Positions 6,890-63,406 of a stretch of 64,000 nt of DNA are shown here, piece by piece. The notes under the pieces are model-generated. The model saw nothing but the letters and a program-made list of their open reading frames with translations. It ran no database searches and was not told where the DNA came from. Origin of the DNA: Ectothiorhodospira sp. BSL-9 (GTDB lineage Bacteria; Pseudomonadota; Gammaproteobacteria; Ectothiorhodospirales; Ectothiorhodospiraceae); NCBI RefSeq assembly GCF_001632845.1, contig NZ_CP011994.1, forward strand, positions 930,001 to 994,000, given 5' to 3'. A program made the translations under genes and the position numbers. The stretch's first letter is position 1. Every line of letters starts with the position of its first letter.

Positions 6890-7070
6890 CGTATATTGCC
6901 TCCTCATTATGGTGTCTCTTTCGGGACGACAACGGTGCCAGATCAGAGGGTGCCGCGCACCGGGTCAGGTGCTTCATGGCCCCCGCACAGTCATGCCCTC
7001 GCTGACGGGGGCATATTAACCCGGGCGGAGCAAGACCAGGTCGCATCGGAAAGCGGTGTCCGGCCCTCTT

Positions 7071-32119: not shown

Positions 32120-32540
32120 CGGGACACGCCCCCCCTCATATCCTGAGCCCTCGCCCACGGCCTAGAGCACAAGCGGTGTGGATACCCGTGGCTCTGGCCG
32201 CGGAAATCCTCCCAACTTCTTGCTTGGAAGGGCCGACATTTCATGGTTGAACACCATCAGGTACACTTAGCGCTGGTTGGTCGCTACTCACAGCATCCCT
32301 CGCGGGATTACTCGCCCCCTAGGGCGGTTTTCCGGTAGGGCAGACGAGGTTGGCCAAGGATTCCGGCAAACCACACAACAATCATGTAATGTGCTATGCG
32401 AACCGCTTTAGGGAACCTCTATTAATTCGATTTGCCGGAATTTCCACCCAACAAAATCAATGGGTTACTGACGGCAGCAAGCAATTAATAGAAGTCCCCT
32501 TTAATCTCTGGATCTTCTCGCTTCACGTCCCAAACAATAA
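32120..32540. other. Upstream region of the SIR2-STAND gene
   Basis: About 420 bp of non-coding sequence, more A/T-rich toward 32380-32540, presumably holding the promoter of the large gene at 32541. The last 20 bases (CACGTCCCAAACAATAA) give no strong ribosome site. No RNA gene was recognised. Confidence 0.45.
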
Positions 32541-35500
32541 ATGGCCAAATCAATGGACCTCGACCCTAGCCTCCTCGACGCCGTCAAAAAAGGAAAGGCA
32601 ATACCCATATTCGGTGCTGGCATCCTGCACGGTGCTCACTTTCCTACTGGTAAAAGCCCGTTGTTGGGAGAGGATCTCAAGATCCTCTTATCTGACCATT
32701 TCCTATCCGGTGACCACAAAAATACTTCGCTGGCTTTCGTCGCTGAACTGGCCGTAAGCCAATCCGATTTATTTACTCTACAGCGCTTTGTCGCGGATCA
32801 ATTTTCCGATATAAAACCAGCGACTTTTCATTGCGACCTAACCCGCTTCAATTGGCGAGCGCTTTTCACCACCAACTATGATCTCCTGATTGAGGAAAGC
32901 TACAAGGCAAGCGGTAATCCTCTACAGCGTTGCCAGCCGATTCTATCCAACTTCGATCCGCTTGATGAGATACGAAGAACAGACGATCGGGTCCCCCTTT
33001 ACAAACTACATGGCTGCGTAACGCGCATACGGGACGTATCACTTCCGCTGATTCTAAATATTGAGCAATATAACGACTACCTCACCAATCGAGATCGGCT
33101 TTTCACAGAGCTTTTTGAACTGGCACACGAAAACACATTGATCTTTGTCGGACACAGTCTACAAGACGCTGACATTCGCGAAATAATCAAGCGCGTTGAT
33201 CGCACGATCGGCCAAGGCCGGCCACAATATTACCTTATCAAACCGGGAGTCAAGATCTCGGAGGTCAATCTTTGGGCACAGAAACGAATAAGGGCACTCA
33301 ACGGCACTCTCGAAGACTTCGTTACGGCCCTACTCGACCAAGTACCCGAACCCCATAGAGCGCTGTCGTTCTCCACCACTCCGGATACCCACCCAATCCA
33401 ATCCAAGTTCTGCACACACAATACTCTCAGCGAAGATATCCTCTCTTTCCTTACCAATGACGTTCAATTTATTGAACAGACACTTCTAACAGGTACCGGA
33501 ACACCTCAAGAGTTCTACCGGGGCCATGGCCAAGGATGGTATCCAATATCTGAGAACCTTGATGCCCCACGCACAATCTGTCGAAAGCTTCTTGCCGATG
33601 CAATAGTTATTGCCGAAGCCAATCGAACCGATAGCGCCGATCTATTCGTCATCAAGGGTGAAGCGGGTTCCGGGAAGAGCGTTCTTTTGCGCCGACTCGC
33701 TTGGGATGCCGGAATCCACAAAAGCCGCATATGCTTTTACGTTTCCGGTCTTTCCTCAATAGACCCGGAGCGATTAGAAGAATTACACGCCAACATTCAG
33801 GAACGCTTATTTATTTTCGTCGACAACGCCGCTCAGTGCATTTGCACGATCAATCGACTAATCAAATTTGCACGCATACGGTCTCTTCCTATTACCATTA
33901 TCACTGCCGAACGGTATACAGAGTGGAACGACCGATGCTCCACACTCGATGAACTTGTTACAGCTCAGTACAAACTACCGTATCTTGGTCCTGATGAAAT
34001 TGACGCTCTTGTGACTCGTCTTGAGAAATATGATTGCCTCGGAGAGGCACTTTTGCCGTTAACGCATAAAGAAAGGGTGCAACGCTTCCAAGACGCTTTT
34101 GGCCGCCAACTTCTTGTTGCCCTGCATGAAGTTACGATGGGTCGCCCATTCGAGGATATTATCTATGACGAATACCGTTCGATTCGATCCGACCGTGCCC
34201 GATCCCTCTATCGGACCGTTTGCATTCTAAATCGACATCGCGTACCGGTTCGCGCAGGGTTGATTCACCGAGTTTTCGATATCGATTGGAATGATTTCCA
34301 GAGCCAGTTTTTAAAACCGCTAGAGAAAGTTGTTATCGCAAGTGGGCACGGGGAGCGCGACTTGCACTACGCCGCACGTCATCCGGAGATTGCGGATATT
34401 GTTTTTCAGCGCGCATACGACTCTGTCCAAGACAGATACCATGAATATGTCCGCGTGCTCAGCTTGCTAAATATTTCATACCAATCAGATCGTACTAGTT
34501 TTAGGAGTATGATTCGAGCAAAAACGATTCTAGATCTATTCCCTGACTCCACCGATGTACAAAGAATATATGACACCGTTTTGGAGTGCGTCGGCCGTGA
34601 TCCCTACGTGCTACAACAGATCGCCAACTTTGAACGGTTACGTGACAACGGTAACCTTCGAAAAGCTATTGATTTTTTAAATGAAGCAAGCAACACTGCT
34701 CCTAAGGATGGTTCAATACTCCACAGCCTCGCTACGACTTGGCGGGACCGCGCCAAAACAGAGGCGGATCCAGGCATTAGGGACCAATATCGAGCGGAGG
34801 CGAGAGCCACTCTCGAACGCCTTCTCCGCATGGATGGCCACAGCGCTTACACTGATTCCGGAATCATTGATCTCGCGATCGACGATGTCCGTGACGCTAT
34901 CGCTGATTCGGGAACAGCAGATCGCACCCTGGACCACTTGGTGCGGAACGCAGAGAAGGCCATTTCGGAAAGCAGACGGAGGTTTCCGTCTGAGGGTCAC
35001 CTTCCTGCGCTCGAAGCGACATTCGCTGAGCTTCTAGCGGACACACCCCGTGCCGTACGTGCGCTCGAGACTGCATGCGGGCAGGACCCAAGTGACCCGT
35101 TCTTGGCTATTCGCCTTTCCACTATATACCGACGACAGGGTCGGCAGCCCGAAGCTAAGTCAGTACTGGAACGAGCGCTAGACTCACGCCGGTCAGACCA
35201 TCGCCTGAACTTTTTTTATGCAGATCTACTCCGCGGCACAGACGAGGCCTCACCTAAATTATTGTCATACTATTTTCGGCGGTCATTCACACCAGGGGAT
35301 TCAAGTTATGAAGCGCAGTTCTGGTACTCACGTTTCGCCATTGAGAGCGATGACGCGACGGAGCGCAAAGCGGCTGGTATGACTTTCAGTGCGCTCCGGC
35401 GAGCAAAGGTTCCCCAAGCGGTAAAATCAAAGATTCGTGATTACCATGGCGGAGAGAATCCAATTAGACACCGGGGCCGCCTCACTGAAAAGAGGGGTGC

Positions 35501-35663
35501 CTATGGGTTTGTCAATGTACGAGATTTTGACATCACGGCATTTATTCATGAAGAAGCGTTTGATGACGGCCTGTGGGAGCTAGTCAGCCTTGGGGAGGAT
35601 CTTAAGTTCAACATTGGGTTTGCGTATACGGGCCTTGTGTGCACTAAAGTGGAGCTTGCTTAA
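32541..35663 (+). CDS. SIR2-like / STAND NTPase / helical-repeat protein with C-terminal cold-shock-like domain (candidate antiphage sensor)
   Basis: A 1040-residue protein. Residues ~15-235 form a SIR2-like NADase domain: IPIFGAGILHG, FTTNYDLLIEESY, KLHGCV with the catalytic-position His, and LIFVGHSLQDADIREI. Residues ~365-640 form a STAND-type NTPase: P-loop IKGEAGSGKSVLLRRL (~370), a Walker-B-like FIFVDNAAQ (~425) and sensor ITIITAERY. Residues ~690-930 are helical repeats of TPR type. Residues ~975-1040 resemble a cold-shock OB fold, with GAYGFVNV (RNP1-like) and ITAFIHEEA (RNP2-like). SIR2-STAND proteins (Avs5-like) degrade NAD on sensing phage; here a nucleic-acid-binding end may be the sensor. 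GC is clearly lower than in the neighbours, indicating transfer. It is a single gene with no visible partner. Confidence 0.85.
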   Translation: MAKSMDLDPSLLDAVKKGKAIPIFGAGILHGAHFPTGKSPLLGEDLKILLSDHFLSGDHKNTSLAFVAELAVSQSDLFTLQRFVADQFSDIKPATFHCDLTRFNWRALFTTNYDLLIEESYKASGNPLQRCQPILSNFDPLDEIRRTDDRVPLYKLHGCVTRIRDVSLPLILNIEQYNDYLTNRDRLFTELFELAHENTLIFVGHSLQDADIREIIKRVDRTIGQGRPQYYLIKPGVKISEVNLWAQKRIRALNGTLEDFVTALLDQVPEPHRALSFSTTPDTHPIQSKFCTHNTLSEDILSFLTNDVQFIEQTLLTGTGTPQEFYRGHGQGWYPISENLDAPRTICRKLLADAIVIAEANRTDSADLFVIKGEAGSGKSVLLRRLAWDAGIHKSRICFYVSGLSSIDPERLEELHANIQERLFIFVDNAAQCICTINRLIKFARIRSLPITIITAERYTEWNDRCSTLDELVTAQYKLPYLGPDEIDALVTRLEKYDCLGEALLPLTHKERVQRFQDAFGRQLLVALHEVTMGRPFEDIIYDEYRSIRSDRARSLYRTVCILNRHRVPVRAGLIHRVFDIDWNDFQSQFLKPLEKVVIASGHGERDLHYAARHPEIADIVFQRAYDSVQDRYHEYVRVLSLLNISYQSDRTSFRSMIRAKTILDLFPDSTDVQRIYDTVLECVGRDPYVLQQIANFERLRDNGNLRKAIDFLNEASNTAPKDGSILHSLATTWRDRAKTEADPGIRDQYRAEARATLERLLRMDGHSAYTDSGIIDLAIDDVRDAIADSGTADRTLDHLVRNAEKAISESRRRFPSEGHLPALEATFAELLADTPRAVRALETACGQDPSDPFLAIRLSTIYRRQGRQPEAKSVLERALDSRRSDHRLNFFYADLLRGTDEASPKLLSYYFRRSFTPGDSSYEAQFWYSRFAIESDDATERKAAGMTFSALRRAKVPQAVKSKIRDYHGGENPIRHRGRLTEKRGAYGFVNVRDFDITAFIHEEAFDDGLWELVSLGEDLKFNIGFAYTGLVCTKVELA

Positions 35664-35673
35664 CCAAGGTCGT

Positions 35674-36296
35674 GTTATTAACGCGGCAATCAAATAAATC
35701 ACTTGATTTCGTGTTTACTTTTGGCAAAATCAGCAACTTACCGGGAGCGCGACGGATATGAATGGTCGCCGGGTTAATAAGCGAAACTGGGAATCGATTT
35801 GCCGGCGACCGGGATTGAATCGATTCTTGAATTTCAAACCGCTGATACGACACGGTCACGTGGTATGGGCGCCGAGGGCCCAGCCCCACTCAGCGTATGC
35901 ACGTTCCCACGGCCGCCTTCAGGGCGAGCCTTTTCCCCGCGTGCAGGATTAGGGCTCGTTTTGCAGTTTTCCGGGAACGACCGCTACCCATCATTATGCG
36001 GTACTTCGACGTTATTGTCCCGGTGCCCGCTTCGGGTCGGCTAGAGTCAGCCATTGGCAGTGCTCGGCCCGGAGCGGGCACTCGAGCCCAGACCGCCTGC
36101 GGCAGCAATGGCGCGCCTACTGGGCACTGAGGAGCATATGTTGTCAAAAAACGGTTCAAATCGCGGCTCGCTCGCTTCGCTCTCACGATCTATTAACCCG
36201 GCGACCATTCATATCCGTCGCGCTCCCGGTAAGTTGCTGATTTTGCGAAAAGTAAACACGAAATCAAGTGATTTGTTTGATTGCCGCGTTAATAAC
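35674..36296. repeat. 623-bp element bounded by 106-bp near-perfect inverted repeats
   Basis: The left arm 35674-35779 and right arm 36191-36296 are reverse complements over 106 positions with two mismatches; outer ends are GTTATTAAC/GTTAATAAC. The 411-bp centre has no convincing gene and contains a GAATCGATT direct repeat and a short copy of the dispersed GGGTCGG repeat near 36030. It starts 11 bp after the SIR2-STAND stop. It could be a MITE-like non-autonomous element or an inverted duplication. No target duplication is obvious. Confidence 0.8.
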
Positions 36297-36347
36297 CATG
36301 TTCGTCGAACGCCGCCCGGAGCCTGCGTTTTTTCGTTGCCTGCCGAA

Positions 36348-36896
36348 CTACAGGTCTAATACCCAGCGGGGAAGGTTTACAACCAACCTGAGGTACGCTC
36401 CAGCAATCATGTTTCTCTCCGCATCACTGCCACTGTCGAACGAGACCCCTAGCGCCTTGCCTGACAATAAAAAAGGCGTGGCCGACCAAAACCTGTCCGA
36501 AGGTGTGCCCGGGAATACCTCCTCGTTTACGGCAGGGCCTGTTTTGCACAGCTCCACAATGCTGCGCAACTCGCTGATGCTGGGCACGCGAAATGCCGAC
36601 CCCTCCTGCTCCGCGAATTCCAATGCTGCCCCCCAACTGCCCATGGAGGCGCTGCCGGCACAATCAGTGCCTGTCCAAGACATGCCCACCGGACATCTTA
36701 GCCAGAAAAGCTCGGTGGGCTCATGGTACACCATCATACCCCCCAAAACGGGTCTGAAATCGCTGGAAGGCGTGGTTTCCAGAAGGTCCGATACGCACTC
36801 GTTGGCGGCCGAAGGGATATCTGCAGCAACGCCGGTAGAGAACAAAACAAGACAGATTGTCAGGAGCCATCGCACGCGAGTTAGTCCAGGTTTCAT
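36348..36896 (-). CDS. Exported DUF1566 (Lcl-like) protein
   Basis: A 182-residue protein. The signal peptide is VRWLLTICLVLFSTGVAA. The mature part has the DUF1566 layout: FWLRCPVGMSWTGTDCAG, FRVPSISELRSIVELC, VFPGTPSDRFWSATPF. It closely resembles the C-terminal ~150 residues of the large upstream protein, so it may be a detached duplicate. ATG 36896 is chosen. A 27-bp tandem duplication (36881-36934) adds a second in-frame ATG at 36923 with the same MKPGL start. It is the last gene of a three-gene exported-protein cluster on this strand. Confidence 0.75.
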   Translation of the reverse strand: MKPGLTRVRWLLTICLVLFSTGVAADIPSAANECVSDLLETTPSSDFRPVLGGMMVYHEPTELFWLRCPVGMSWTGTDCAGSASMGSWGAALEFAEQEGSAFRVPSISELRSIVELCKTGPAVNEEVFPGTPSDRFWSATPFLLSGKALGVSFDSGSDAERNMIAGAYLRLVVNLPRWVLDL

Positions 36897-50440: not shown

Positions 50441-50815
50441 TCCTGGTCACGCACTGGCGCGTCGTGGTGCAAACATCTCCTTACCGGGGTAGAACCATCC
50501 AGAAACTCGGAATCAATTTAGAAGGAGACCCAGCTCAACGAAAGCGTTGGCCTACCTGACCCCAACACCAAAGGGCGGGTGACGACCGTCCGCTTGAGGC
50601 AGGGCTGGAGACACTCATCAATTGAGACCGACTGACCGCTCCGGGTCGGCAAGAGACAACCATTGCTGGGGGTGCTCGGCCTTGAGCGGGCAGTCAACAT
50701 CAACCGACCAGCGGCTGCAGTTGGACTTGAAGCTGGCAGATGGATAGCAGGGATTGCGAGGGCACATTCAGCAACGGCGCCCCCCCGGATGTTAATCCTT
50801 TCCTAGATGCCGAAA
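50441..50815. repeat. Non-coding region with two dispersed palindromic repeat copies
   Basis: About 375 bp. One copy around 50625-50660 (ACCGCTCCGGGTCGGCAAGA) and an inverted relative at ~50670-50730 (GAGCGGGCAGTCAAC, CCAGCGGCTGCAGTTGG) face each other, forming a large potential hairpin. The region lies between two minus-strand transcription units: the three-gene exported cluster ends at 50816 and HigBA begins at 50440. Confidence 0.6.
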
Positions 50816-63188: not shown

Positions 63189-63290
63189 CCTGCCCGGTTC
63201 AAAGCGGTTTGCGGCCGCTGGTCAGCGCAGGCCAAATGCCCGGTTCGGGTCGGCAAGAGACAGCAATCGGCAAGGCACGGCCTAGATCGC
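63188..63290. repeat. Dispersed palindromic repeat copy (longest in window)
   Basis: Contains GCGGTTTGCGGCCGCTGGTC followed by GCGCAGGCC, then AAATGCCCGGTTCGGGTCGG and AAGAGACAGCAATCGG. Its reverse complement matches the right flank of recombinase element copy 2 (57103-57145) over about 45 bases. Related partial copies lie near 36030, 42130, 49125, 50640, 50700, 55130 and 56350. Confidence 0.65.
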
Positions 63291-63406
63291 GCCCCGCCTT
63301 GGGAGTCGTAGAGTCCGGAAGCTGGCCAACCACGGGCGGTCTCGGCAGTGGCCAGGACATCAAACCCAGCTTACCCTGCTCGCTAACAACCCCACGGTCC
63401 GACGGG

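Follow-up and report, generated by a model that had tools for sequence, protein, structure and literature searches.

What a long, nearly perfect inverted repeat represents immediately downstream of a defence gene is the question raised by a locus of Ectothiorhodospira sp. BSL-9, which lies in a 64-kb stretch of DNA (64,000 nt, hereafter the window). A first-pass annotation had described 106-bp inverted repeats, matching at 104 of 106 positions, around a gene-free element of 623 bp (35674-36296) starting 11 bp past the stop codon of a SIR2-STAND gene, and had offered a MITE-like passenger, or a structured RNA or DNA cruciform linked to the defence gene, as explanations. As set out below, the 623-bp feature is best read as a single non-autonomous MITE of 104 bp present in two inverted copies, produced by a recent local duplication and mobilized in trans by an IS630-type transposase (probability about 0.72).

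Structure and coding content of the locus

The geometry was reproduced at the same coordinates. The arms (35674-35779 and 36191-36296) are 106 nt each and 98% complementary (104/106), with two mismatches at arm columns 57 and 85 and a spacer of 411 nt, and the left arm begins 11 bp downstream of the end of the SIR2-STAND stop codon at 35663. When the window was scanned for inverted pairs of at least 25 nt with arms no more than 3 kb apart, the next pair was one of 25 nt at 80% and no further pair was found; as the sole long inverted repeat in 64 kb, the 106-nt pair is therefore not attributable to chance. The description as gene-free also held, with no Pfam match for the four small ORFs (81-101 aa) overlapping the 623-bp element. 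No Rfam family was found within the element, and a tRNA search of the 64-kb window returned none. The sole Rfam match in the window is a group II intron domain (RF00029, 60796-60872, E 4e-08).

Each arm contains one complete 104-bp element (35676-35779 and 36191-36294), outside of which each 106-nt arm carries two extra complementary bases. The features of the locus are as follows:

32541..35663, + strand: SIR2-STAND-TPR gene, 1040 aa; stop codon 12 bp from the left MITE
35676..35779, - strand: left MITE copy, 104 bp; model R1, 104 bits; terminal repeats TATTAACCCGGCGACCA / TATTAACGCGGCAATCA
35780..36190, no strand: non-coding DNA between the two MITE copies, 411 bp; dispersed-repeat matches, no Pfam match in scanned ORFs
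36191..36294, + strand: right MITE copy, 104 bp, 98% identical to the left copy; model R1, 105.4 bits

A second MITE-like family is represented just upstream of the SIR2-STAND start (window 32411-32499); it is 89 bp long, has the terminal repeat GGGAACCTCTATTAATT and shows apparent 4-bp target duplications, TTTA in the window and TTAT, TTTA and ATAA at three other loci.

Copies and distribution of the MITE family

Searching the genome of origin with the whole element recovered single arm copies at three other places, 78-82% identical in that search and 76-81% identical to the arms when the copies were aligned, while the whole 623 bp was found only once. In the 10 genomes of the genus, the sequence-only arm model R1 located 25 places in 7 genomes (29 model rows, four of which are the same place on the opposite strand), with one to five copies per carrying genome; in 37 genomes of the family outside the genus it had no match. 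An exact-pattern scan of named genomes matched five contigs, all of them from Ectothiorhodospira (marina, shaposhnikovii and haloalkaliphila). Phages and plasmids searched with the whole 651 bp gave no match, and viral contigs contained neither the exact MITE-end pattern nor that of the centre (0 each).

An alignment of 17 copies defines the arm as an element of 104 bp bounded by a 17-bp terminal inverted repeat of its own, TATTAACCCGGCRAYCA. TA starts all 17 copies and also ends 16 of them; the rows were chosen with the same exclusions as the stop-codon count given below, and the absence of internal gaps among them carries no weight. The two arms are mutual nearest relatives (98%), followed at 89% by a copy in another genome of the genus.

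Inverted pairs of copies were also seen at two other loci. At L037:4992-13795 in the genome of origin (G000:C1:1653991-1662794), two copies with 80% mutual identity span 8.8 kb end to end, and the roughly 8.6 kb between them includes polysaccharide-type genes, as read by eye from the translations. The pair at L040, in G007, measures 426 bp end to end.

A probable IS630-type partner

With up to two mismatches allowed, a scan of the 10 genomes gave 75 occurrences of the 17-bp terminal repeat, against two of a reversed control pattern. In the genome of origin, three elements have this repeat at both ends, with no more than one mismatch:

L101: 1106 bp, intact transposase ORF of 351 aa (NF033545 transpos_IS630, E 8.5e-65; DDE_3, 6.8e-38)
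L102: 1106 bp, transposase frame broken
L103: 2599 bp (2.6 kb), IS630 ORF of 350 aa (NF033545, E 1.3e-70; DDE_3, 5.1e-38)

Because L103 holds a second long ORF besides that of the IS630 transposase, the strongest candidate for an active IS is L101. The sequence common to the MITE and the IS is limited to the terminal 17-19 bp. Each arm thus shows the traits of a MITE, being short (104 bp), devoid of a detected transposase or other gene, present in multiple copies at unrelated sites with varied neighbouring genes, and bounded by terminal repeats in common with an autonomous IS630-family IS. Both arms are copies of one IS630-type MITE of 104 bp, which belongs to a known kind of element. The earlier label ‘MITE-like’ accordingly applies to each arm and not to the 623 bp as a whole, found in a single copy and with its arms solo elsewhere.

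IS630-family elements are described as inserting at TA and duplicating it (PMC2170065). Given the shared ends, the MITE is probably moved in trans at TA targets by an IS630-type transposase, which would bind the MITE ends, cut the element out and paste it into a TA dinucleotide that would thereby be duplicated.

Insertion sites

We infer the TA target duplication from the element ends, where the TA might just as well belong to the repeat itself. Clean empty sites were sought at the window flanks and at two further loci, L049 and L043, and none was found. The flanks of the window element are not conserved, and those of L049 were matched only in its own genome. At the L043 locus, an ortholog without the MITE exists in G005, where the alignment is broken by a 210-bp gap corresponding to the MITE plus other DNA, and in G002 only the right flank is kept. 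L043 also carries, at 6910-7018, a very abundant repeat of ~75 bp; G005, G002 and G003 each have dozens of copies of it, with matches on either strand.

In 4 of 16 cases, taking out the element and one TA in silico leaves the target TA inside the stop codon of an adjacent ORF, compared with an expectation of 0.2 for random TA (P 4e-5) and of 2.2 for TA sites whose use disrupts no ORF (P 0.11). The 16 sites comprise 15 single copies and the window pair, counted once; the count leaves out the truncated copy G003:C33, of whose 104 bp 84 remain, as well as seven model hits of lower strength, some of which contain indels (G009:C26, G007:C1, G002:C7 and four in G005). None of the three IS copies has its target TA in a stop codon. 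Special targeting of stop codons was considered and rejected, as 4/16 is not clearly above the level of non-disruptive TA sites (P 0.11); the counts fit harmless insertion without it.

Origin of the pair: separate insertions or a composite unit

Much of the argument about the origin of the pair concerns its 411-bp centre. The part at 36024-36132 resembles a dispersed intergenic repeat that is also found at 50633-50719 and 63237-63292 of the window and in relatives. The part at 36141-36190 resembles a second dispersed repeat of attC-like look, with copies in relatives at L020, L027, L031 and L036, and the match runs up to the right MITE.

The arms are 98% alike, compared with 89% or less for all other copies, which points to a recent nearby duplication. 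The recent origin proposed in the first-pass annotation fits this pattern, as the arms are also closer to each other than to the other copies of their own genome (76-81%). One copy would have hopped a few hundred bases away in the opposite orientation, and the 411 bp between the copies would be pre-existing intergenic DNA. The place just past the defence gene would be one where insertion at TA does no harm, with no functional coupling to the gene.

The alternative, that a composite unit of 619 bp (TA to TA) arrived beside the SIR2-STAND gene as one piece with the 411 bp as passenger, is unlikely, though it has points in its favour: the outer ends form a correctly oriented pair of terminal repeats with TA at each end, two further inverted MITE pairs exist (L037 in the genome of origin, L040 in G007), and units called TIME-COMPs, bounded by inverted MITEs, are described as moving their contents (PMC13367494). 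Against it, the whole unit was found in one copy only, and the right part of its centre resembles ordinary intergenic repeats. The attC-like homology of the centre stops at a TA at the right MITE, and the DNA beyond that MITE weakly resembles the continuation that insertion into the repeat would predict (7/15, equalled at 143 of 2714 TA sites), which leans towards separate insertion. However, when the two sides are joined, the attC-like hairpin ranks only 1906 of 3000 in folding against random joins. Two separate hops around existing intergenic DNA remain the favoured reading. A more far-reaching proposal is very unlikely: the family would act as a non-autonomous cargo system of Ectothiorhodospira whose inverted pairs, driven in trans by IS630 transposase, ferry accessory segments for surface polysaccharide or defence from one island to another, and insertion at the 3′ ends of genes would spare the neighbours.

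Relation to the SIR2-STAND gene

The 1040-aa neighbour combines nSTAND_NTPase5 (1e-26), SIR2_2 (2.9e-23) and TPR domains, and its SIR2 region is ThsA-like (5.9e-18). The proposed link between the element and this gene was not borne out. A search for SIR2-STAND homologues in 144 genomes found the protein in its own genome only (0/143 other related genomes), and none of the 50 stretches returned by a pattern scan of named genomes was confirmed as a homologue; since the protein has no detected homologue, no conserved pairing of MITE and gene could be found. The earlier annotation had held that many unrelated genomic copies would make the link accidental, and for the arms such copies were indeed found, beside many kinds of gene. 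The neighbours include an ABC transporter and other polysaccharide-type genes (identified by eye), an FkbM methyltransferase at L044 (confirmed by scan) and a CopG antitoxin. Ten neighbouring proteins, picked by eye and hence the basis of no enrichment claim, were scanned, and five matched defence models, at four loci:

L041: PDC-M36A
L045: PDC-S35
L050: PDC-S52
L051: SspA/DndA and SspB

These surroundings suggest that MITE neighbourhoods are accessory regions in general. Most likely, the MITE pair lies beside the defence gene incidentally, the gene being a bystander and the pair no part of a defence system.

That the element might instead serve the defence gene as a functional module at the 3′ end, acting as an RNA hairpin, a terminator or a regulatory cruciform, is highly improbable. 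Its position 11 bp past the stop codon would suit such a role, read-through transcription could give an RNA with a 106-bp stem, and the centre folds better than shuffled sequences on the + strand (z -3.45). The same sequence nevertheless adjoins unrelated genes, no terminator-like site occurs in 35500-36500 (0 versus 1.6 in shuffles), the element holds no Rfam family, the advantage of the isolated right arm over shuffles in folding is modest (z -1.7 for one strand, -1.9 for the other), and no SIR2-STAND homologue was found in which conservation could be tested. On the - strand, folding of the centre is not clearly better than that of shuffles (z -1.6), and a 17-nt inner inverted repeat of the centre may explain the + strand signal. 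The suggestion of a structured RNA gained no backing from Rfam or from the search for terminator-like sites.

The ends of attC sites follow the rule RYYYAAC...GTTRRRY. An integron-type attC pair with a gene cassette is extremely improbable: the arm does measure about 104 bp, its ends pair imperfectly, several copies directly adjoin stop codons, an integron integrase scores above the cut-off in 3/10 genus genomes and there is the attC-like repeat match in the centre, but the arm ends do not fit that rule and match IS630 terminal repeats, and the copies are dispersed, the three in the genome of origin outside the window not being near the intI locus. The integron region of the same genome, compared with the attC-like part of the centre, gave no match. 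The integrases above the curated cut-off (G000:C1:269244-270176; L174) are in the genome of origin, in G009 and in G005, and in G009 a MITE copy that adjoins the CopG antitoxin gene lies about 7.3 kb from the integrase.

Comparison with known systems

The closest precedents are RUP with IS630-Spn1 and the TIME-COMPs. RUP of Streptococcus pneumoniae, for which 108 copies and 9-bp repeats are reported (PMC2229807), is likewise described as about 105 bp long and non-coding, with ends like those of a resident IS630-family IS, terminal TA and a proposed mobilization in trans. Likened here by description, it differs in belonging to another genus, in its copy number (108 copies versus one to five per carrying genome) and in its repeats (9 bp versus 17 bp).

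TIME-COMPs, described as composite units bounded by Tn3-derived MITEs (PMC13367494), similarly place two inverted MITE copies around a segment. As described, they have Tn3-type repeats and 5-6 bp direct duplications, whereas the putative unit considered here has IS630-type ends and TA targets, and the five bases just outside it on either side (CGTGT and ACCAT) form no direct repeat.

ISY100, of the IS630/Tc1/mariner group, offers a mechanistic model, its single transposase being reported to excise the element by double-strand breaks and to insert it at TA with TA duplication in vitro (PMC2170065). ISY100 is autonomous and its mechanism was shown in vitro, whereas the mechanism proposed here is drawn by analogy.

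Implications

For the defence gene, the analysis removes a false lead, the inverted repeat being most likely no component of a SIR2-STAND system. For Ectothiorhodospira, it brings to light a MITE family of which no description was found in a literature search for MITEs in this genus. The family has an identifiable IS630 partner, which makes its mobilization in trans directly testable.
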